In this document: one piece after another, positions 18,939 through 29,665 of the stretch
How the letters are laid out: each line of letters opens with the position of its first letter
How positions within the stretch are numbered: position 1 is the stretch's first letter
Origin: Burkholderiales bacterium PBB3
GTDB taxonomy: Bacteria > Pseudomonadota > Gammaproteobacteria > Burkholderiales > Burkholderiaceae_C
Assembly (NCBI GenBank): GCA_002256115.1
Contig: NKIK01000011.1
Location: forward strand, 1 to 64,000
Length of the DNA: 64,000 bases
Direction of reading: 5' to 3'
Translations under genes and position numbers: made by a program
Notes under the pieces: generated by a model
What the model was told of the DNA's origin: nothing
Databases searched by the model: none
Seen by the model: the letters and a program-made list of their open reading frames with translations, nothing else

Positions 18939-20813
18939 ATGGCAATCGTAGAAATCAAGGTTCCGGACATTGGCGACTTGGACGAAGTGGCGGTCATTGA
19001 ACTGCTGGTCAAGGTGGGTGACACCATCAAGGCCGAGCAGAGCCTGATCACCGTGGAGAGCGACAAAGCTTCCATGGAAATCCCCGCCAGCGAAGGTGGC
19101 GTGGTCAAGGAGCTCAAAGTCAAGCTGGGCGACAAAGTCAAACAGGGCACAGTCGTGGTGTTACTGGAGGCAGCGGGTAGTTCCGTGCCCAATACACCCG
19201 TTCAGGCCGTGGATAGTGCGGGAGCAGCTCCTAAAAATGTAGCAAATTCAACGCCTGCTGCAACGACCTCACCTGTTGCTGTAGCCCCAACTGCGGTTGC
19301 AGCTAACCCTGGTGCCAACTACACCGGTAGCGCCGATCTGGAATGCGACGTGGTCGTCATTGGCGGCGGCCCCGGCGGTTACTCCGCCGCGTTCCGCGCG
19401 GCCGACTTGGGCCTCAAGGTCATCGTGGTCGAGCGCTACGCCACCCTGGGCGGCGTGTGCCTGAACGTGGGTTGCATCCCCAGCAAGGCGCTGCTGCACG
19501 TGGCGGCTGTGATGGACGAGGTCAGCCACATGGCCGACCTGGGCGTGGACTTTGGCGCACCTACGCTGAACATCGACAAACTGCGCGGTCACAAGGAAAA
19601 GGTCATCGGCAAGCTGACCGGCGGCCTGGCCGCCATGGCCAAGATGCGCAAGGTCACCACCGTGCGCGGCTACGGCAACTTTGTCGGCGCCAACCACCTC
19701 GAAGTGGAAGAAACCAGCGGCACCGCCCAAGAGAAGACCGGCAGCAAGAAGGTCATCGCCTTCAAACGCGCCATCATCGCGGCGGGTAGCCAAGCCGTGC
19801 GTTTGCCCTTCATGCCCAACGACCCACGCGTGGTGGACAGCACCGGCGCCTTGGCGCTGACTGGTGTGCCCAAGCGCATGCTGATCCTGGGTGGCGGCAT
19901 CATCGGCCTGGAAATGGGCACCGTCTACAGCACGCTGGGCGCCCGCCTGGACGTGGTGGAAATGCTGGACGGCCTGATGCAGGGCGCCGACCGCGACCTG
20001 GTCAAGATCTGGCAAAAGATGAACGCCAAGCGCTTCGACAACATCATGCTCAAGACCAAGACCGTGTCCGCACGCGCCTTGCCCGAAGGCATTGAGGTCA
20101 CGTTTGCCCCAGCGGAAGAGGGCGGTACCGCCCCCGCACCGCAGGTGTACGACCTGGTGCTGCAAGCCGTGGGCCGCACGCCCAACGGCAAGAAGATCAG
20201 CGCCGAGAAGGCCGGTGTGTCGGTGACCGACCGCGGCTTCATCAACGTCGACATCCAGATGCGCACCAACGTGCCGCACATCTTCGCCATCGGAGACATC
20301 GTGGGCCAGCCCATGCTGGCGCACAAGGCGGTGCATGAAGCGCACGTGGCGGCCGAAGTGATTGCCGGCGAGCTGCAAGGCAACAAGGAACTGGCGGCTG
20401 CCGCGTTCAACGCACGCGTCATCCCCAGCGTGGCCTACACCGACCCCGAAGTGGCATGGGTCGGCCTCACCGAAGACCAGGCCAAGGCGCAGGGCATCAA
20501 GGTCAAGAAGGGCCTGTTCCCCTGGACCGCATCGGGCCGCGCGATTGCCAATGGCCGCGACGAAGGCGTCACCAAGCTGCTGTTTGACGACAGCCCCGAA
20601 GCGCATGGCCACGGCAAGATCCTGGGCGGCGGCATGGTCGGCACCCATGCGGGCGACATGATCGGCGAGATCGCGCTGGCGATTGAGATGGGTGCGGATG
20701 CGGTGGACATTGGCAAGACGATTCACCCGCACCCGACTCTTGGGGAATCCATTGGTATGGCGGCGGAGATTGCGCACGGCGGCTGCACGGATGTGCCACC
20801 GAGTAAGAAGTAA
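18939..20813 (+). CDS. lpdA: Dihydrolipoyl dehydrogenase (PDH E3) with N-terminal lipoyl domain
   Basis: Reoxidises dihydrolipoyl groups of E2 with NAD. The 624 residues comprise an N-terminal lipoyl domain (VESDKASMEIP again), an Ala-Pro linker that carries a dispersed repeat copy (DSAGAAPKNVA), and a full flavoprotein disulfide reductase: FAD site VVVIGGGPGGYSAAF, redox disulfide GGVCLNVGCIPSK, NAD site LILGGGIIGLE, FAD site GDIVGQPMLAHKA, and the C-terminal His-Pro-His region ending TDVPPSKK. Lipoyl-fused E3 is known in betaproteobacterial PDH. Fragments of a second lpdA lie at 26.3-30.7 kb. Confidence 0.97.
   Translation: MAIVEIKVPDIGDLDEVAVIELLVKVGDTIKAEQSLITVESDKASMEIPASEGGVVKELKVKLGDKVKQGTVVVLLEAAGSSVPNTPVQAVDSAGAAPKNVANSTPAATTSPVAVAPTAVAANPGANYTGSADLECDVVVIGGGPGGYSAAFRAADLGLKVIVVERYATLGGVCLNVGCIPSKALLHVAAVMDEVSHMADLGVDFGAPTLNIDKLRGHKEKVIGKLTGGLAAMAKMRKVTTVRGYGNFVGANHLEVEETSGTAQEKTGSKKVIAFKRAIIAAGSQAVRLPFMPNDPRVVDSTGALALTGVPKRMLILGGGIIGLEMGTVYSTLGARLDVVEMLDGLMQGADRDLVKIWQKMNAKRFDNIMLKTKTVSARALPEGIEVTFAPAEEGGTAPAPQVYDLVLQAVGRTPNGKKISAEKAGVSVTDRGFINVDIQMRTNVPHIFAIGDIVGQPMLAHKAVHEAHVAAEVIAGELQGNKELAAAAFNARVIPSVAYTDPEVAWVGLTEDQAKAQGIKVKKGLFPWTASGRAIANGRDEGVTKLLFDDSPEAHGHGKILGGGMVGTHAGDMIGEIALAIEMGADAVDIGKTIHPHPTLGESIGMAAEIAHGGCTDVPPSKK
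19205..19244 (+). repeat. 40-bp dispersed repeat, copy 5 (E3 linker)
   Basis: Repeat copy in the linker of lpdA, read in frame as DSAGAAPKNVA, at the position equivalent to the E2 linker copies. Confidence 0.88.
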
Positions 20814-20824
20814 ACACTTCAACT

Positions 20825-20879
20825 GCTACTGATTCAGTAGCTGGCCGCGCAGATTCCGCAGGGGCTGCGCGGTTTTTTT
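20825..20879 (+). terminator. Tandem hairpins and Rho-independent terminator after lpdA
   Basis: A perfect GCTACTG-ATT-CAGTAGC hairpin (20825-20841) is followed by CCGCGCAG/CTGCGCGG (20845-20872) and seven T residues. This closes the PDH operon. Confidence 0.92.
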
Positions 20880-21182
20880 AGGAAAATTTCGTCGAAATGC
20901 TTTGCTGCCAAGGCTGCACGGTGGTCCTACGGTTGGCAGATGCGCACCATCGCGTTAATTGCGCGCAGTATCGACAATCAGGCAAATACTGGAACACACC
21001 TGGGTCGCGCGTCCTGCTGTGCTAAATCTGCTAGCGAATTACGCGTCAAGCCGTCTTGTCGTCCCCACCAGCAGCACTCGCGGGTGCGGGGTAACTGCGA
21101 TATTTAGGCCAGTTCAAGCGACCACACACAGGGCGTTACTTTTCCAAGAAGGTTGAATATTTACCCGATATAAAGTAACATC
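20880..21182. other. Non-coding stretch between PDH operon and ATPase module
   Basis: About 300 bp with no convincing gene; a 65-codon open frame (20959-21156) has no protein-like features. A CTGCCAA...TTGGCAG inverted repeat (20905-20939) is the only structure seen. Base composition shifts to AT-rich toward 21160, suggesting the boundary of acquired DNA. Confidence 0.5.
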
Positions 21183-21214
21183 AATACAAATTCGTATTAA
21201 TACAATTGTGTATT
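21183..21214. promoter_or_regulatory. Tandem-dyad operator upstream of the ATPase module
   Basis: Two abutting 16-bp dyads of the form AATAC-N6-GTATT: AATACAAATTCGTATT (21183-21198) and AATACAATTGTGTATT (21199-21214). The junction is itself the palindrome GTATTAATAC, so the whole block is pseudo-symmetric. It lies 22 bp before the ATG, within the expected promoter region, as a repressor site would. The regulator is unknown. Confidence 0.7.
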
Positions 21215-21235
21215 GATTTAATATAAAGGGAAGCC

Positions 21236-22444
21236 ATGAAGCTTGGAGCTATTGCCACGGGGATAGATTTCTACGACCGAAAGACAGAGTGTTCAGACCT
21301 TTGGGGTTATCTGGAAAACGACCATGTTGTCGCCAGTGGCCCACGGCGCTTGGGGAAGTCTTCCATCGTGAACCGCCTGCGCGAAGAGGCAGCAGCGAAA
21401 GGCCTGCTTGCTCAACATGTGGATGTTCAAGGCATAGAAGGTGCTCAGGCATTTATTGATGAAATATCGTCGCATTTTCCCGATGATTCAATCATGGGCT
21501 ACCTCAGCTCTCTCGGGGACACCGCAAAACAGTGGTTCTCTGCCGTCAAGAAATTTGAGCTGAAAGGACCTGGCGGTGTTGGTGGCGGAATTGAACTGCA
21601 AGCCAATGCCGGCCAACCTTGGCACAGGTCCGCCACCGCCCTCCAGGCCAGACTGACGGCGGTGCCTGTGCTGATTTTTATTGACGAGTTCTCGGTCTTT
21701 CTCCAAAAGCTTTTGGCTAGCAATCAAAAGGAAGCCGAAGCCTTGCTGGCATGGTTGCGTGCTTGGCGGGTCACGCCCGGTGTGGCGTGCCGTTTTTTGT
21801 TTACGGGTTCCATTGGCCTGAATGCGCTGTTGGAAAAATATGGCCTCAGTGCGCAGTTCAATGACTGTTACGAATACCCTATTGGCCCTTTCAAGGTCAA
21901 CGCAGCATGCGACATGGTCAGTGCCTTTGCGCAACGCGATGGCTGGTTCATCAACACCGCTACGGCGAGTTACGTGTGTGAGCGTGTCGGATGGTTGTCT
22001 CCGTTCTATCTTTGCCTGTTGTTGGATGAAACCACCAAGGCGGCGCGTGACCGTCTGGATGAAACACCGCCCCTATCACAGGGTGTGCCAACCAGAGAAT
22101 TGACGCGTGACGATGTTGACAGTGCCTATGAGCGCTTGCTGTCCGCGCGGTCGCGCTTTGTCCATTGGGAGCAGCGCATCCATCGTGATCTAGCTGGCGC
22201 CGACTTGGCCTTCGCGAACCTTGTATTGACCGCGTTGGCGAAAAACGAAACCGGCTTGACACAACGCCAACTGCACGCCCGGCTCGCCAAACTGGAGCCA
22301 GATCCGGACCCACGTGCGGCACGTCTGCAAACCATTCTGGGCAAGCTCCAGGAAGAGGGTTACACCAGCCCGGTGGACGCATCCGGGCGAGTCAAGTTCT
22401 TGTCATTCTTGTTGCGTGACTATTGGGGTCGCAACCATGTCTGA
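21236..22444 (+). CDS. P-loop ATPase (STAND-like), first gene of a two-ATPase module
   Basis: A 402-residue protein with Walker A GPRRLGKSS (residues 35-43) and Walker B VLIFIDEF (about 145-152), then a GSIGLNALLEKYG sensor-like stretch and a C-terminal winged-helix-like segment (LTQRQLHARL...LGKLQEEGYTSPV). The arrangement resembles the archaeal-type ATPases of the STAND clade (COG1672-like). There is no signal peptide or nuclease motif. AAAGGGAAG precedes the ATG. Its last eight bases overlap the start of the next gene, so the two products are coupled and probably work together. Role unknown; signalling or phage defence is inference. Confidence 0.75.
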   Translation: MKLGAIATGIDFYDRKTECSDLWGYLENDHVVASGPRRLGKSSIVNRLREEAAAKGLLAQHVDVQGIEGAQAFIDEISSHFPDDSIMGYLSSLGDTAKQWFSAVKKFELKGPGGVGGGIELQANAGQPWHRSATALQARLTAVPVLIFIDEFSVFLQKLLASNQKEAEALLAWLRAWRVTPGVACRFLFTGSIGLNALLEKYGLSAQFNDCYEYPIGPFKVNAACDMVSAFAQRDGWFINTATASYVCERVGWLSPFYLCLLLDETTKAARDRLDETPPLSQGVPTRELTRDDVDSAYERLLSARSRFVHWEQRIHRDLAGADLAFANLVLTALAKNETGLTQRQLHARLAKLEPDPDPRAARLQTILGKLQEEGYTSPVDASGRVKFLSFLLRDYWGRNHV

Positions 22445-25400
22445 AATCCCATCCCCACCCAGCACACCCAGCTGGGGAAATCACAACGGCATCGCCGCCA
22501 CGGCCAAATACAACCCGCATCTGTGGAGTCCGGGGGAATTGCGCGCCATCTTCGTGGCGCGTCAGCGGGAACTGGCGACGATTTTGGAGGTGCTGCAAAC
22601 GGCTGCTCCCAATGTTGCCCCACAGCATCTACTAATCACTGGCCAACGCGGCATGGGCAAGTCCACTTTACTGCAGCGTGTTGCGTTGGCGGTGGAGGAT
22701 GAGCCGGAACTTCGCAAAACCTGGTTGCCCTTGCGTTTTCCAGAAGAGCAATACACCGTCAGCACACCAGCAGAACTTTGGAGCAACGTCATTGGCGCAT
22801 TGGGCGATGCCCTGGAGCGTCATGAACAGTCCACGGCAGAAGTTGATTCAGAGCTTGCGCAACTGATGAACTCGCCCAAAGAACAACGAGAAGAATCGGC
22901 GTTAGCCTGGATCAAGCAATGGTGTGAGACCCACCACCAGCGCCTGCTCTTGCTCATCGACAGTACCGATTTGCTGTTTGCCAATCTGGCGGGCGGGGAA
23001 TTGAGTAAGCGCGGCACCAAACAGGACGGTGGTGCCTCTGCACTTTGGCGTGTACGCAAGGCGCTTTTGCATTCGCCCCATTTGCTGTGGGTGGGTGGCA
23101 GCTACCAGCCGCTGGAAGCACACGGCCTCTACAGCGACGCTTTCTTGGATTTCTTTCAGCTCATCGAGTTGCGCCCCCTGACGCTGATAGAAATGCAAAC
23201 CGCTATACAAGCCATGGCGCGCGTCTTCGGTGCTGGCCGCGGGCTTCAGGGTGACGAAGCCGAGGCTGAAGTAAAGCGCGTGTTGACCGCGCGCCCAGAA
23301 CGCCTGCGCGCCATGCGCCAGCTGACCGGTGGTAACCCTCGCACCACCGTCATGCTGTATGAGCTTTTTGCCGCCGGTGGGCGCGAAAACGTTCGTGCGG
23401 ACCTGGAGCGGCTACTCGATGCAATGACTCCCTTGTACAAAGCCCGACTAGAAGTGCTAGCCGACCAGCCACGCAAAGTCGTTGCCCATGTCATGGAGCA
23501 CTGGGCTCCCGTCACCGCCAAGACACTGGCCCGGGCAGCCGCGTTACCAGTGAGTTCGGTCAGTGCGCAACTCACACGCCTGGAGCAAGAAGGCCTGGTC
23601 GAAAAGACCACCCTAAGCGGCACCAAGCGACTGGGCTACCAGTGCAGTGAGCGCTTTTTCAACATCTGGTACCTCATGCGCAATGCGCCACGCGGTGCCC
23701 GTGCCCGCGTGGGGTGGCTGGTGGAATTCATGCGGCTTTGGTATAGCAACGATGAGCTACAGGGCTTGGCAAGAACGCGCCGAAATAGGCATCGGGATGG
23801 ACTCGATTGCGATGGTTCGGAGCTTGAGTATTCCCGCGCCATCGTCTATGCAATGCCCAAAGATGCGCAAGAGCGGCATCAATTGGACTGGGCGGTGTTC
23901 CAGCAGGCTAGAAAAGGGGGCGGCTTAGGTGAACTGTACGAGCTGGACGGGGAGGATGCCGACTACGCATCGCCCCACGACTATCTGGAGCGCTTGGAGG
24001 CCTTGCGCAACGCTTTGAAGTTGACTCCGGTCCCGCAGGACGACCGACAGACTTGGGTGCAGGGTGTAGTCGGCGCACTGCATCTGACACTGATTGAAAA
24101 GGAGACGTTGGCGGCAGATTGCGCTAACGCGCCCATTCCGAAGATCACTGAGACCCGCTCGGCTCTGGCCGAAAGAAGGAAAAAGCTGATCACTGCCTAC
24201 GACTTGGAAAGCATTGAACGGGTTGAGAAAGCGGTAGTTGACGGACAATTTTTCCCAGACTGCCCAGACGCCAAGCTCGCACTTACCCAGATGTTGACGT
24301 GCTTTGAATCGCACCCAATGGCGTTCGTGGTTGCGATAGGTCGTTTGGTGAAACGGTGCAGCGGCCTCGACGTTGAGACCGCGTGCAGGAGGGCAACTGA
24401 ATTGGCGCCAAAAAATGCGCAAGCTTGGGACTTCCTAGGTGATCTGCTCAGTGAAGATATTGATCGGAGCTGGGAAGCCGAAGCGGCCTACCGCAAGGCT
24501 ATTGAAATTCGTCCGACATGGGCAATGCCGTGGAGAGACTTGGGTATTCTGTTAAGTAGAAAGCCAGATCGTGTTGACGAGGCCGAGCTGGCCTTTCGCA
24601 AAGCCATCGAACTTGACCCGGATTCAGCATCATCTTGGGGTGTTTTGGGGGCTCTACTACATTACTGGTCAAACCGCTATGAAGAGGCAGAGAAGACTTA
24701 TCGCGAAGCCATCAAACTCGATCCAAATTCGACTGCAACGTGGCTGGTTTTGGCAGATCTTTTGGGCAACAGGCTCAATCGTTTTGAAGATGCAGAAGCG
24801 GCCTATCGTAAGGTCATCGCACTCGATCCAAAGTCCAAACGGGCATGGGGCTCCTTAGGCGATATATTGGCTCACGAACTCAACCGCAATGAAGAAGGCG
24901 AGGCAGCTTATCGCAAGGTGATCGAACTAGATCCGAAGTCAATTGCGGCGTTGGGTGCGTTAGCCTATTTGTTAGGCGACATACTTAATCGACCTGTGGA
25001 AGCCGAAACGTTGTACCGAAGGATCATTGAACTCGATCCAGAACTAGCCGCACCTTGGGGAGCCTTGGGTAATTTGTTCAGCTACAAGTTGCATCGCTTT
25101 GAAGATGCAGAAGCGGCCTATCGCAGGGCAATCGAGCTTGACCCGAAGTGGGCAACACCTTGGAGAGATTTAGGGAGTTTGTTGAGCTACGAGTTCAGTC
25201 GCTACGGGGAAGCCGAAGTAGCCTATCGCAAAGCGATTGAACTTGCCCCGAAATGGGCACAAACCTGGGATGCTTTGGGCGACTTATTGTGTAAAGAGCT
25301 CAACCGCGTTGAGGAAGCTGAGGCGGCCTACCGCAGAGCGATTGATCTAGATCCGAAATCTGCTTGGCCATGGATTGGTCTGGGTCAACTGCTAAGCGAA

Positions 25401-26000
25401 AAACTTAGTCGTTTTGAGGAAGCTGAGGCCTCTTTCCGCAAGGCTATTGAACTTGATTCAAAATTTGTTTTTGCTTGGGGAGAACTGGGGGAGCTGTTGC
25501 AGGATCGTTTACATCGATACGATGAAGCGGAAGCTGCTTACCGGACTGCGATGGAATGCAACCCGCTCGCCCCATCGCCTGTCGCAAACCTGGCACGGCT
25601 TATGGCGCGGCTAAAGCGAACCAATGAAGCAAATGAACTGTTCCGACAAACGCTCAAACTGGTCGAAGTGACCGATCACAACATACGCTTGCAAGCCCAT
25701 TGCTGGCTGGGCAATAACGACTTGGCGCTGCAGGCGCTGGATGCGTTGGCGGAACAGGCTAGCAAAGGCGATGAGTCTGCGTTCTATGAACTCAAAGAAC
25801 AGTGCTTTGAGTGCCACGTCATTGGTCTGTCCAAACCTTTGGTCGCGTTAATGGAACGTACCCGTTTCGCAGACTTTTTGCAACCTTTCGCGCTGGCGCT
25901 CAGCGCGGCAGGTGGTGACATGGATGCACTCCTAGACGTAGCCGCTGAGGTACGTGGAATGGCAGATGAAGTGTTGGCGCAGATTCGCGGAGCTCGTTAG
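22437..26000 (+). CDS. STAND-like ATPase with eleven C-terminal 36-residue TPRs
   Basis: A 1187-residue protein. Walker A GQRGMGKST (residues 69-77) and Walker B LLLLIDSTD (about 170-178) head the N-terminal NTPase. A winged helix follows near 345-420 (LARAAALPVSSVSAQLTRLE). From about residue 665 come eleven tandem TPR-like units of exactly 36 residues with the pattern R-x-E-E-A-E-A-A-Y-R-K-A-I-E-L-D-P, then a degenerate twelfth. NTPase-wHTH-repeat order is that of STAND switch proteins, with the repeats as sensor. The open frame starts at 22314, but ATG 22437 overlaps the previous stop (ATGTCTGA). The TPR part is less GC-rich than neighbouring core genes. Confidence 0.8.
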   Translation: MSEIPSPPSTPSWGNHNGIAATAKYNPHLWSPGELRAIFVARQRELATILEVLQTAAPNVAPQHLLITGQRGMGKSTLLQRVALAVEDEPELRKTWLPLRFPEEQYTVSTPAELWSNVIGALGDALERHEQSTAEVDSELAQLMNSPKEQREESALAWIKQWCETHHQRLLLLIDSTDLLFANLAGGELSKRGTKQDGGASALWRVRKALLHSPHLLWVGGSYQPLEAHGLYSDAFLDFFQLIELRPLTLIEMQTAIQAMARVFGAGRGLQGDEAEAEVKRVLTARPERLRAMRQLTGGNPRTTVMLYELFAAGGRENVRADLERLLDAMTPLYKARLEVLADQPRKVVAHVMEHWAPVTAKTLARAAALPVSSVSAQLTRLEQEGLVEKTTLSGTKRLGYQCSERFFNIWYLMRNAPRGARARVGWLVEFMRLWYSNDELQGLARTRRNRHRDGLDCDGSELEYSRAIVYAMPKDAQERHQLDWAVFQQARKGGGLGELYELDGEDADYASPHDYLERLEALRNALKLTPVPQDDRQTWVQGVVGALHLTLIEKETLAADCANAPIPKITETRSALAERRKKLITAYDLESIERVEKAVVDGQFFPDCPDAKLALTQMLTCFESHPMAFVVAIGRLVKRCSGLDVETACRRATELAPKNAQAWDFLGDLLSEDIDRSWEAEAAYRKAIEIRPTWAMPWRDLGILLSRKPDRVDEAELAFRKAIELDPDSASSWGVLGALLHYWSNRYEEAEKTYREAIKLDPNSTATWLVLADLLGNRLNRFEDAEAAYRKVIALDPKSKRAWGSLGDILAHELNRNEEGEAAYRKVIELDPKSIAALGALAYLLGDILNRPVEAETLYRRIIELDPELAAPWGALGNLFSYKLHRFEDAEAAYRRAIELDPKWATPWRDLGSLLSYEFSRYGEAEVAYRKAIELAPKWAQTWDALGDLLCKELNRVEEAEAAYRRAIDLDPKSAWPWIGLGQLLSEKLSRFEEAEASFRKAIELDSKFVFAWGELGELLQDRLHRYDEAEAAYRTAMECNPLAPSPVANLARLMARLKRTNEANELFRQTLKLVEVTDHNIRLQAHCWLGNNDLALQALDALAEQASKGDESAFYELKEQCFECHVIGLSKPLVALMERTRFADFLQPFALALSAAGGDMDALLDVAAEVRGMADEVLAQIRGAR

Positions 26001-26279
26001 CGCTGTGAGTTCCACCTGGTCATGCATGGCTCTAGAAGCGTGCCGCAGGAGTGGCTGGTCACCATTCGCCAGTTTGGTGGCCACATCAAGGAAACCTACG
26101 GCAGGCCGATGGAAGAAATCCAGTGTGGCATCTATGACGGCGTGCGCAACATCAACATCAACACCGACGTTCGCCTCACTATGACCGGCGCGATGCGCCA
26201 GGTGTTCGCCCAGCAACCAAGCGAAATCCACCCGCGCAAGGCACTGGTGGCAGTCAAGAATGTTGCGCGCGGCATTGTG
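26001..26279 (+). pseudogene. Fragment of class II fructose-bisphosphate aldolase gene
   Basis: A 93-codon open fragment beginning next to the ATPase stop. [14 protein letters not shown], then the [12 protein letters not shown] segment and [15 protein letters not shown] match the C-terminal part of class II aldolases (FbaA/CbbA), where the LVMHGSSSVPQ and NIDTDLRLA motifs sit. There is no start region and no aldolase C-terminus; the frame runs straight into the lpdA fragment at 26280. It is therefore gene debris joined by recombination, not a working enzyme. Confidence 0.8.
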
Positions 26280-26502
26280 AATGCTAGACGGTCTGATGCA
26301 GGGCGCGGACCGCGATCTGGTCAAGATCTGGCAGAAGATGAACGCCAAGCTCTTCGACAACATCATGCTCAAGACCAAGACCGTGTCTGCACGCACCTTG
26401 CCTGAAGGCATTGAGGTGACGTTCGCAGCAGCAGAGGAGGGCGTGAAAGTGCCCGAGCCGCAGGTCTACGACCTGGTGCTGCAGGCCGTGGGCCGCACGC
26501 CC
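26280..26502 (+). pseudogene. Fragment A of a second lpdA copy
   Basis: Matches intact lpdA from 19961 on ([20 protein letters not shown] and following) to VGRTP, with many synonymous differences and a few amino-acid changes. It ends at the left edge of the IS21 element in ACGCCC, the same point at which fragment B resumes. Confidence 0.9.
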
Positions 26503-26538
26503 CCCGATGGCCACTCAAAGTGCTCCACTTATGGCCAG

Positions 26539-26563
26539 TCAAACTGCTCCACCTCGGCCACCG
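26539..26563 (+). repeat. IS21 terminal transposase-binding-type repeat
   Basis: The motif TCAAACTGCTCCACC followed by a GGCCACCG block near the left terminus. An almost identical copy lies inside istA at 26832-26856. Confidence 0.7.
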
Positions 26564-26655
26564 TAAATTGATGTGCTGAACTCAGCAAACCAGTAGCTCG
26601 GAGGCCACTGGCAGGACGTTACTTTCACCCCCTCACCGTCGAGGGGATAACAGGA

Positions 26656-28227
26656 GTGAACGTCTTGAAACTGCATTTGCAAACCACCATTTGGACCCTG
26701 CTCAAGGCCGGGTCCACCCAGCGCCAGATTGAACGCGCCACAGGCATTTCGCGCCACACGATACGGGCCTACAAGAAGAAGTTCGACAGCCACAGTGCGG
26801 ACCTATCGCCCGATCCGTCGAGCGCGCCAATTCAAACTGCTCCACCCTGGCCACCGACCCTACCACCTGAACGGGTGACCGGCACCTCCATCTGTGAACC
26901 CTACCGCGACTACATCGAAGCCCAGTTGCGCCTCAAACGCAACGCTATGGCCATCTACCAAGACCTGGTCGATCAGTTTGGCTTTGCGGGTGCCTACAAC
27001 GCCGTCAAGCGCTTTGCCGCCAAACTGCGCCACCGTGAGCCTGAGCAGTTCGACCGCCTGGAGTTTGCACCCGGTGAGGAGATGCAGGTCGACTACGGTG
27101 AGGGCGCACCCACCCGCGTGCTGGGCACCACCCGCTACCGCAAACCCCGCCTGTTCGTGGCAACGCTACGCTACTCCCGACGCAGCTTTCGCCGCGTGGT
27201 CTGGAAGTCTGGCCAAGAGACTTGGGCCCGGCTGCATGAGCAAGCTTGGCGCTACTTCGGCGGGTCTTGCCGATATGTGGTGCTGGACAACCTCAAAGAG
27301 GGTGTACTCAAGCCCGACATCCACGAGCCCGAGCTCAACCCGGTCTATGCAGCAGCGCTTAAGTACTACGACGTCGTGGGTGACCCCGCCCGCGTACGAG
27401 ATCCGAATCGCAAAGGTACGGTGGAGAACGCCATCGGCCACACCCAAGCCACCGCCCTCAAGGGCCGACGCTTTGAAACCATTGAGGAGCAGAACGACTT
27501 CCTTGAGCACTGGGAAGTGACCTGGGCCGCCACCCGTATCCACGGCAGTGAGCGCCGCCAAGTGCAGGCCATGTTCGAGGAAGAGAAGTCCCACCTGCAA
27601 GCCCTACCCATCGTGGGTATGCAGTATTTCACCGAGTCCCAGCGCACCGTTTACGACGATACCTGCGTGCGCGTTGACCACAGCAGCTACGCCGCGCGCC
27701 CGGCCCCCATTGGCTCCCTTGTTCTTGTGCGCATCTTTGAGCACCGTATCGAGATTCGCGACCTCCAGTCCCAATCCCTGCTGCGCACCCACCCGCGTGC
27801 CCAACGCCCAGGATCGGTGATCCTGCCCAATGAGGAGCGCGTCTTTAACCCCTCGCGTGAGACCCTGTACATCCTCAACCAGGCCAAGGACATCGGAGCT
27901 CACGCGCATCGGCTGTGCCAGATGCTGTTCGGCATTGAGGGGCGGGTAGGCCAGCGCAAGCTCTGGGGCATCGTGGGCCTGGGGCGCACCTACCCGCACC
28001 GCTTGGTCGACTCAGCTTGCGAACGCGCCATGCTTGACGGGGTCTACAGCTACAAGCACGTCAAGGCGCTCACCGAACGGCTCGTGGCAGATGCCCTTGC
28101 GGCAATTGATTCTGCGCCAGATGCGCACCGCGCTCAGGCCGAGCTGCCCCTGACCCAGGCGCACCCCCTCATCCGCAGCACTGATGAGTACGCAGACCTC
28201 TTTGCCCGCTGCAGCGCCCAGTCATAA
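26656..28227 (+). CDS. istA: IS21-family transposase IstA
   Basis: A 523-residue DDE transposase. An N-terminal helix-turn-helix (STQRQIERATGISRHTIRAY) precedes an rve-type catalytic core with Asp in MQVDYGEG, Asp in VVLDNL and Glu in KGTVENAIG. The start is GTG 26656 after CAGGA. A proline-rich stretch near residues 59-68 is encoded by a copy of the IS terminal repeat. No stops or frameshifts are seen, so the element may be active together with istB. Confidence 0.95.
   Translation: MNVLKLHLQTTIWTLLKAGSTQRQIERATGISRHTIRAYKKKFDSHSADLSPDPSSAPIQTAPPWPPTLPPERVTGTSICEPYRDYIEAQLRLKRNAMAIYQDLVDQFGFAGAYNAVKRFAAKLRHREPEQFDRLEFAPGEEMQVDYGEGAPTRVLGTTRYRKPRLFVATLRYSRRSFRRVVWKSGQETWARLHEQAWRYFGGSCRYVVLDNLKEGVLKPDIHEPELNPVYAAALKYYDVVGDPARVRDPNRKGTVENAIGHTQATALKGRRFETIEEQNDFLEHWEVTWAATRIHGSERRQVQAMFEEEKSHLQALPIVGMQYFTESQRTVYDDTCVRVDHSSYAARPAPIGSLVLVRIFEHRIEIRDLQSQSLLRTHPRAQRPGSVILPNEERVFNPSRETLYILNQAKDIGAHAHRLCQMLFGIEGRVGQRKLWGIVGLGRTYPHRLVDSACERAMLDGVYSYKHVKALTERLVADALAAIDSAPDAHRAQAELPLTQAHPLIRSTDEYADLFARCSAQS
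26832..26856 (+). repeat. IS21 terminal-type repeat inside istA
   Basis: TCAAACTGCTCCACC plus the GGCCACCG block, differing at two positions from the terminal copy at 26539-26563, embedded in the istA coding region where it encodes part of a Pro-rich linker. Confidence 0.65.
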
Positions 28228-28257
28228 CCCCAACCATTTTTAGACCGAGATATTTCC

Positions 28258-29025
28258 ATGACCCTCAATGAGATAGAACGCGCCCTGCGCGAACTGCGCT
28301 TGTCTGGCATTGCCGCCACCTTGAATACCCGTGTCATGCAGGCCCAAAGCTCCCAGGAGCCATTCCTGGACACCTTCGCCTCTATGCTGCAGGACGAACT
28401 GGATCGGCGCCGCTCGCGTGTAACAGAGCGCCGGTTCAAACAATCCGGACTCGATGAACGCTTGAGCCTTGCTGACTTTGATTGGCGCTTTAACCCCAAG
28501 ATACCCAGACAGGCTTGCTTTGAGCTGCACAGCCTCAAATTCATCACTGAAGGTGCCAACGCCCTGATCATTGGCAAACCCGGAACCGGTAAAAGTCACG
28601 TCGCCAAGGCCGTGGCTTACCAAGCAACCCTACAGGGCTACAGCGTCAAGTACGTCGAGGCGGATAGCGACTTTGCGAGGTTCGGCCTGGCCACCCAGGC
28701 TGAACAAGCCAAGATTCTGCTGACCTACACAGACCCTGACCTGCTTGTATTGGACGATCTCTTTCTGGCCCGGCGCATTGCCGAAGTCAGTGCGGAGTTG
28801 CTGCAGGCAATCGTTCACCAGCGCTACAAACTGCGCCGCTCCATTGTTGTGACTTCTAACCGTGTGGTCCAGGACTGGGGCAAATATCTGGGCGACGCCA
28901 CCATGGCAAGCACGATCTTGGACCGCCTGATGCACCGCTGCAGCATGCTCGACTTCGAAGGAAAGAGCTATCGACTCAGGGAAGCGACAGCGCGAATGGC
29001 AGTATCGGCACCCGTTGATTCTTGA
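28258..29025 (+). CDS. istB: IS21 helper ATPase IstB
   Basis: A 255-residue AAA+ ATPase of the DnaC/IstB type that assists IstA in target choice. Walker A GKPGTGKSH and Walker B DLLVLDDLF are intact, followed by TSNR (sensor 1). It begins 30 nt after the istA stop. Length and motifs are normal, so the element looks complete. Confidence 0.95.
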   Translation: MTLNEIERALRELRLSGIAATLNTRVMQAQSSQEPFLDTFASMLQDELDRRRSRVTERRFKQSGLDERLSLADFDWRFNPKIPRQACFELHSLKFITEGANALIIGKPGTGKSHVAKAVAYQATLQGYSVKYVEADSDFARFGLATQAEQAKILLTYTDPDLLVLDDLFLARRIAEVSAELLQAIVHQRYKLRRSIVVTSNRVVQDWGKYLGDATMASTILDRLMHRCSMLDFEGKSYRLREATARMAVSAPVDS

Positions 29026-29153
29026 ACCATGAATAAGGAGAAATTAATCTAAACAGCCCGCCCAGACAGCAGCCCTGAACCCCATAATCTGGCCGTCCTG
29101 CCTGGGGCAGTTTGGGTGGCCATAAGTGGAGCAGTTTGGGGTGGCCATCGGGG

Positions 29154-29450
29154 CGCCCAACGGCAAGAAAATCAGCGCCGACAAAGCCGGCGTGGCAGTG
29201 ACGGACCGTGGCTTTATCAACGTCGACATCCAGATGTGCACCAACTTACCGCACATCTTCGCCATCGGCGACATCGGCGACATCGTCGGCCAGCCAATGC
29301 TGGCGCACAAGGCGGTGCACGAGGCGCATGTGGCTGCGGAAATGATTGCCGGTGAACTGCAAGGCAATAAAGAGCTGGCCGCCGCCGCCTTCAACGCCCG
29401 CGTCATTCCATCCGTGGCCTACACCGACCCCGAAGTGGCCTGGGTCGGCC
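29154..29450 (+). pseudogene. Fragment B of a second lpdA copy
   Basis: Continues fragment A on the other side of the IS element: PNGKKISADKAGVAVTDRGF onward to VAYTDPEVAWVG, matching intact lpdA to about 20465. It contains a 9-bp duplication (IGDIGDIVG for IGDIVG) at the FAD-binding aspartate. The match stops abruptly at 29450. Confidence 0.9.
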
Positions 29451-29665
29451 AGCGGCTTTGGGTGTCTTTGGCAAGGCAGAAAGTAGGGAGGCCGTGCGTC
29501 AACTCTGGCAGAGGTATCTGCCTTAGCGGTATAGCTGGTTTTTTTGCATCCCAATATCCCCTACCGAGTTGCGTACCCGAGACCATCGCGGCTCACAGGC
29601 AAAGGCCGGCTTGCAACCGTTTGTGTTCGGAATTTTGCGGCTGCTAGGGCTTTGGAGGCGCGGAC
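29451..29665. other. Unassigned sequence between lpdA fragment and esterase gene
   Basis: About 215 bp that no longer matches lpdA. The open frame of fragment B runs through it to 29647 without recognisable protein sequence. No RNA or repeat signal seen. Confidence 0.4.

Follow-up and report, generated by a model that had tools for sequence, protein, structure and literature searches.

A putative self-repressing pair of STAND ATPase genes behind a phased operator array

Phage defence of the Avs type centres on STAND NTPases with repeat sensors. Outside that setting, promoter control by a STAND protein has a precedent in the mycobacterial IniR, which joins an SSO1545-like ATPase to a MalT-like sensor region and binds its target promoter (PMC5760070), DNA binding by an NLR has one in Rx1, which binds DNA in vitro (PMC4599002), and the inactive STAND proteins BrxB and BrxF of BREX place the STAND/ORC-Cdc6 fold in a defence setting (PMC12839542). 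Here I describe two overlapping genes, A and B, that lie behind a tandem dyad array in the window, by which I mean the whole 64,000-nucleotide stretch from Burkholderiales bacterium PBB3 (contig NKIK01000011.1). By sequence, they are a conserved pair with a common fold and, in most loci, a phased operator, and no second array was found where the search could tell. The conserved pair, the one fold, the private phased operator and a patchy spread agree with a mobile switch that represses itself, and my best explanation, held at a probability of roughly 0.55, is a mobile, self-repressing sensor/executor module of two STAND proteins. The literature searched, which included few subscription papers, holds no description of the A-B pair, and a term search of the available part of PMC7159879 returned no mention of paired ATPases; a widespread, NLR-like module of two ATPases thus appears undescribed in that literature.

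The gene pair and its distribution

The initial annotation would have been refuted had the two genes failed to recur together in other genomes, and they do recur together. A profile of A matched 11 of 369 genomes of the class at 100 bits or more (25 of the 36 matched genomes scored at most 63 bits and were taken to carry other ATPases), and a separate profile of B, at E 1e-15, returned the identical 11 genomes of the same 369, with B adjoining A; this B profile was built with the B of two of its 11 genomes (G000, which is the window's own, and G449), and its search scored at most four candidates per genome. The own genome also holds a second, weak match to the A profile (G000:C41, E 5.5e-9). 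A family survey with A as query found true A in 5 of 250 genomes (the own genome, G008, G121, G205 and G110), and B adjoins A in all five, cut by the contig end in G205, while a phylum survey found A in 5 of 398 genomes besides the own, every time paired with B. Finally, 84,980 species genomes were scanned for two peptide patterns taken from a set of four A proteins, and 40 loci were confirmed. These carry the labels Pseudomonadota, Bacteroidota, Chlorobiota, Thermodesulfobacteriota, Acidobacteriota and Planctomycetota; one metagenome-assembled genome labelled Bacillota groups among Bacteroidota in the A tree. No phage carrying the module was found, and none of 60 pattern matches in viral contigs was confirmed. 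Weak A matches in G075 and G180 (L006 and L007), whose frames read by eye as P-type ATPases, were dropped.

In all, 64 loci were read, comprising those of the surveys and the scan, three plasmid loci and the window itself (the plasmid match H4 was left out, and L063 and L065 are the same contigs as L083 and L088). B lies directly downstream of A in 61 of them; the exceptions are L104, which meets a contig end, L049, which is an A fragment, and L098, which is a whole A. L102 has a split A with B present. The 60 pairs that were measured all have both genes on the same strand with A first, and the distance from the stop of A to the approximate start of B runs from -72 to +35 nt. On these counts the A-B pair is a genuine two-gene module. 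Its distribution is patchy, across several phyla, and the pair seems to move horizontally, because members of one bacterial family sit in three distant A clades, one with the window, one with L011 and one with L012-L014; the A tree is a quick one with long branches, and old paralogues may instead be the source of the three family clades.

The claim in the initial annotation of two overlapping STAND-like ATPase genes stands. The overlap is 8 nt, with the ATG of B at 22437 and its stop ending at 26000, and the best fold matches of both cores are the archaeal ATPases PABY2304 (2qen) and SSO1545 (2fna). The AlphaFold model of A (pLDDT 88.9, pTM 0.84) matches 2qen at Z 25.2 over 323 residues and 4.0 Å, then 2fna (Z 23.3), ORC2 (Z 20.9) and plant NLRs and CED-4 (Z about 18-20), and also TnsC and MuB; among sequence matches of A in the PDB only 2qen and 2fna are convincing. 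The model of B (pLDDT 88.1, pTM 0.53) matches 2qen with residues 18-414 (Z 22.2, 328 residues, 3.9 Å), 2fna with residues 23-413 (Z 20.2) and the NRC4 resistosome over nearly the same span (Z 20.1), and its residues 660-1061 match the tetratricopeptide repeat (TPR) superhelix of O-GlcNAc transferase (1w3b) at Z 28.9. Since the models have a common core and the profiles of A and B are homologous (hhalign probability 98.6, E 1.2e-15, 308 columns), A and B are distant relatives, B with an added, sensor-like TPR superhelix. Going by the models, both belong to the STAND NTPase class, with a core plus helical and winged-helix domains. A common fold by itself reveals no function.

The eleven TPRs first read in B were found again, at a spacing of exactly 35 residues between anchors and not the 36 first given. 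Both proteins retain the Walker A motif, the pattern being kept in 57 of 58 A and 50 of 54 B proteins; the count of the Walker B pattern in B was too loose and is not used. For the window pair, the best 25 of 52 Pfam families comprise weak ATPase matches only for A and AAA_16, a winged helix and many TPRs for B. Among 25 B proteins (best 25 of 51 families), nSTAND_NTPase5 and AAA_16 match all 25 at E<=1e-3, the B of the window scoring below the curated nSTAND cut-off, and TPR families are present in 16 or more of the 25 proteins of one Pfam set and in 9 of 10 in another. B frames uncut by a contig end range from 292 to 1295 aa, and those of the Bacteroidota type are compact, at 292-313 aa. The end of one short B is overlapped by a TPR-like open reading frame (ORF) of 399 aa (L053:7416-8615), as if the sensor had a gene of its own or B had a frameshift.

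The initial annotation saw no recognisable effector, and neither do the Pfam matches listed: they are ATPase, winged-helix, TPR and chance repeat families, with no effector-type domain among the best 25 of 51 families for the 25 B proteins. Ten protein pieces outside the core and the main TPRs gave no Pfam family, weak ones or further TPR. Beta strands in the models of A and B are confined to the ATPase and winged-helix parts. Since residues 414-660 of B are all-helical and without a Pfam family, a helical effector could hide there.

The operator array and its candidate reader

A strict double-dyad operator had been proposed ahead of A, and this is borne out: the pattern AATACA-N4-TGTATT, with at most one mismatch, has two sites in the 64 kb against 0.02 expected, at 21183-21198 and 21199-21214, and tandem dyads of 16 bp occur in most homologous loci. 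Autocorrelation of the DNA upstream of A peaks at lag 16 with a mean z of 2.47 over 59 loci, z exceeding 2 in 45 of the 59 and in 41 of 53 once near-copies are removed, and mean z is at most 0.88 at every lag other than 16 and 32. A run over 47 loci gave a mean z of 2.85 at lag 16 with five failing loci left out, as against -0.04 in control upstream regions from those loci (150 of 192), of which 5% lie above z 2; this run omitted L056, L057, L067, L097 and L101 after poor results, as well as near-duplicates and partial loci. The 59-locus runs restore these five and omit L063, L065, L049, L082 and L107 (L049 and L082 are A fragments, and L107 has only 2 nt of upstream DNA). Starts of A were picked automatically and are doubtful in L097 and L101. 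A palindromic tandem pair scores above all 40 shuffles at period 16 in 42 of 59 loci, as against 2, 3, 6, 11, 5 and 9 of 59 at periods 10, 12, 14, 18, 20 and 22. The counts of a three-unit fit, whose score favours more units and picks three even without an evident array, are not used.

The array reads as units of alternating half-sites, each 8 bp long and loosely following NNNN[CA]AA[AT]. Examples are AATACAAA (window), TATTCAAA (Chlorobiaceae), ACGTCAAT (L014 and L047) and TATAAAAA (Bacteroidota). The bases of the units vary by clade, and the 16-bp period is common to most loci. In a subclade with SH-aLRT 91 (L008/L009, L052 and L054, of which L008 and L009 are near-copies) the top lag is 27 in 4 of 4 loci, that is 16 + 11, or one extra turn of B-DNA. 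That dyads stay 16 bp (or 27 bp) apart while the bases change argues that the geometry of an oligomer on the DNA is under selection. L098, the whole A mentioned above, has a good dyad upstream (palindrome 14/16) with little unit repetition (7/16), and its lag-16 z is still above 2.

The tandem pattern occurs once in the own genome, at the module and with 0 mismatches, and the single dyad has two other sites there, each with one mismatch. In G449, G110 and G985 the array of the module matches at 0-2 mismatches and elsewhere the pattern matches only at three. No second array was thus found in the four informative genomes (these three and G000). Because the array precedes A in most loci, and because no second array was found in those genomes, the module most likely represses itself, and the operator offers a direct handle on it. 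As for the promoter, TAnnTTTG, which I take to be the -7 box consensus in the 13 loci of the Bacteroidota type (L094, L095 and L099 being near-copies), starts right after the array in 7 of them and at most 8 nt past its end in 11.

Perhaps it is the MarR/ArsR-like winged helix of B that reads the operator. Its profile matches are 1ku9 (E 6.8e-7), MarR (1.2e-5) and SmtB (8.2e-4), and Pfam MarR_2 and MarR match 11 and 10 of 25 B proteins, respectively. Its net charge is positive in 94% of 35 proteins and averages +4.3, against +0.8 for the winged helix of A, and a PDB search with the A profile (E 0.1) gives no transcription factor. By eye, with no test, the recognition helix of B differs among operator groups.

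Genomic setting

The features of the module and of its surroundings are collected in Table 1.

Table 1. Positions in the window of the array, the two genes, their parts and the adjoining fragments
Feature	Position	Strand	Basis or remark
Putative operator: two tandem 16-bp dyads (21183-21198, 21199-21214) in a 38-bp dyad, 84% complementary	21180..21217		
Possible degenerate third 16-bp unit, weak	21167..21182		Best fit in the window uses 3 units
Gene A: predicted STAND/ORC-type ATPase, 402 aa	21236..22444	+	ORF, predicted structure, fold and profile matches
A, Walker A GPRRLGKSS	21338..21364	+	[RQ]RxGK[ST] in 57/58 A proteins
A, Walker B, catalytic-type DE	21671..21688	+	D150 and E151 invariant (37 sequences); DE pattern in 56/58
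A, C-terminal winged-helix region	22199..22441	+	Predicted structure; near-neutral, mean charge +0.8
Gene B: predicted STAND ATPase, winged helix and TPR superhelix, 1187 aa	22437..26000	+	
B, Walker A GQRGMGKST	22641..22667	+	G69, G72 and G74 invariant, K75 in at least 90% (25 sequences)
B, MarR/ArsR-like winged helix, proposed operator reader	23457..23651	+	Profile matches, Pfam, charge
B, helical linker, residues 414-660	23676..24416	+	All-helical in the model; no Pfam match at E 0.1
B, TPR superhelix, 11 repeats of 35 residues	24414..25619	+	Pfam, fold match 1w3b Z 28.9, anchor spacing
lpdA fragment, residues 340-417	26275..26508	+	
IS21 istA/istB between two lpdA fragments (26656-28227, 28258-29025)	26656..29025	+	
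lpdA fragment, residues 410-510	29144..29452	+	

The accessory location read from the window holds, as does the IS21 element with gene debris beside the pair, the istA and istB genes lying between two fragments of lpdA. The AT shift is likewise present and modest, GC being 0.53-0.59 in 2-kb windows over the genes and 0.54-0.64 elsewhere in the window. Adjoining the first lpdA fragment, 26022-26290 is presumably the end of a fructose-bisphosphate aldolase gene (by eye). The 3' end of lpdA (window 20814-29650; L114 and L115) has the same arrangement in the window genome, G217 and G125, a full lpdA with other genes and incomplete copies of lpdA behind it and a different cargo in each genome, and it appears to be an insertion hotspot in the genus. 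The IS21 pair of the window clusters with the annotated istA and istB of L010, where, as in the window, the IS21 pair stands behind the module, that of Segatella, at about 4 kb (L010:14123-16425); this is probably chance.

The flanking genes inspected are mostly housekeeping by eye, with Pfam names for part of them. Neighbouring ORFs were called by length and some are false; the searches covered 170 of 172 chosen proteins (two longer than 1250 aa were left out), with Pfam run on 53 of the 170. Among 542 neighbouring ORFs no conserved third gene occurs in more than four loci. In L084, L085, L086 and L089, from Dechloromonas and a relative, a cobQ-like gene precedes the module by 0.6-2.1 kb, and two of these loci also have a cobT-like gene downstream of the module (both by eye). 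A Moraxella plasmid locus has Qat genes and an N6-methylase beside the pair, and three Chlorobiaceae loci have hsdM-like neighbours with PADLOC type I methyltransferase matches. Beside a Moraxella pair, the large gene at L009:7122-10868 has a restriction-like N-terminus and a P-loop ATPase part (by eye) and is possibly another STAND defence gene. The best PADLOC matches of A itself are mad8 (4.7e-7, in 8 of 37) and PDC-S01 (1.7e-5, in 5 of 37), those of the window pair are weak (best 7.7e-5), and no family in PADLOC-DB (2023) is convincingly matched by A or by the window pair. The literature searched yielded nothing on the MADS system, to which mad8 belongs.

Proposed function and known systems

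In the self-repressing module proposed here, B, probably as dimers oligomerising with or without A, would bind at least two 16-bp dyads through its MarR/ArsR-like winged helix. Adjacent B dimers, separated by about 1.5 helical turns, or by 2.5 in the subclade with the 27-bp spacing, would close the common promoter. A ligand would meet the TPR superhelix of B, or another face in the compact Bacteroidota forms, and change the nucleotide state of B, whereupon the assembly would leave the DNA and/or recruit A into an NLR-like hetero-oligomer with A, whose Walker A and DE Walker B are intact, as the active executor. The payoff, the least certain step, would most likely be abortive arrest of the cell or its protection from an invading element. 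Because immune functions are common among STAND proteins with repeat sensors, immunity is the likeliest payoff, and by analogy a function in defence is plausible. A bolder version, tentative at best, makes the module a prokaryotic counterpart of paired sensor/helper NLRs, in which B is sensor and self-repressor, A is executor, and the sensing of an invader both frees the operon and assembles the hetero-oligomer. If true, a single nucleotide-driven conformational change would serve both transcriptional control and immune switching, and the operator would be one that keeps its helical phase while its sequence drifts.

Several observations weigh against the proposed module. L098 (1304-2467) is a whole A for which no B was found, and G554 carries an extra A fragment without B (L049). 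The five loci that the 47-locus run omitted after poor results lack a signal at lag 16 and lag 27 alike, and the lag-16 z is at most 2 in L012, L069, L083, L102 and L104. In G427, G986, G987 and G988 even the array of the module needs three mismatches to match, which is chance level (backwards controls at three mismatches give 24, 2, 1 and 1, respectively), and these genomes are therefore not informative on uniqueness. A sigma-70 scan of 20800-26700 gave no promoter, and covariation between operator and protein over 35 loci did not single out the recognition helix of B, the top columns lying mostly in A. The Pfam matches listed for A and B include no recognised effector domain, and defence-type neighbours occur in few loci (PADLOC, best 25 of 93 and 25 of 43 families). 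A position outside islands is itself no argument against immunity, since only 17% of known defence genes lie inside islands by the definition of DefensePredictor (PMC13092281).

What else could such a pair be? The rival that fares best, itself unlikely, is addiction of the toxin-antitoxin kind, in which a STAND protein that does harm when free is restrained by its partner, and the complex of the two represses the operon at its own operator. Two overlapping genes, a private self-operator, patchy spread and a module that often stands alone among housekeeping genes (by eye) would all suit this, but the two proteins are ATPases related to each other, each with its Walker A motif intact, no toxin family is among the Pfam matches listed (best 25), and a large, variable TPR sensor is unusual in toxin-antitoxin modules. 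Unlikelier still is a regulator of the MalT/IniR type that responds to a metabolite or to stress by controlling genes, its own among them. No other regulatory target is seen, because the four informative genomes hold no second array (single weak sites may exist), and no conserved neighbour gene is there to be regulated, although B does have the ATPase, winged helix and TPR of such a protein and IniR, an SSO1545-like ATPase with a MalT-like sensor region, activates one operon (PMC5760070). Initiation of replication or transposition by an ORC/TnsC-like ATPase at iteron-like repeats is very improbable, for although A matches the folds of ORC2, TnsC and MuB and a repeat array sits upstream of the gene, that array abuts promoter-like elements in Bacteroidota loci and no third gene, a transposase for instance, is conserved beside the pair.

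The mobile, self-repressing pair that I favour differs from each of the systems closest to it. The matches to 2qen and 2fna span one ATPase core, in chains of 350-357 residues with no TPR. IniR is one protein that activates a separate operon, whereas here there are two ATPases and only a self-operator is seen. BrxB and BrxF are inactive, whereas A and B retain Walker A, with no recurrent third gene beside the pair. The Avs and bNACHT-type defence proteins likewise have an NTPase core and a C-terminal sensor region, but A and B are without a recognised effector domain, are two NTPases and have a private operator array. Plant NLRs differ in that here the genes are bacterial and overlap and no CC, TIR or LRR is among the Pfam matches listed; their folds nevertheless resemble those of both proteins (Z about 18-20), and plant paired NLRs, a sensor and a helper, are also two STAND proteins acting as a pair. 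If B couples sensing to self-repression, the module would be a link between STAND immune switches and STAND transcription factors.

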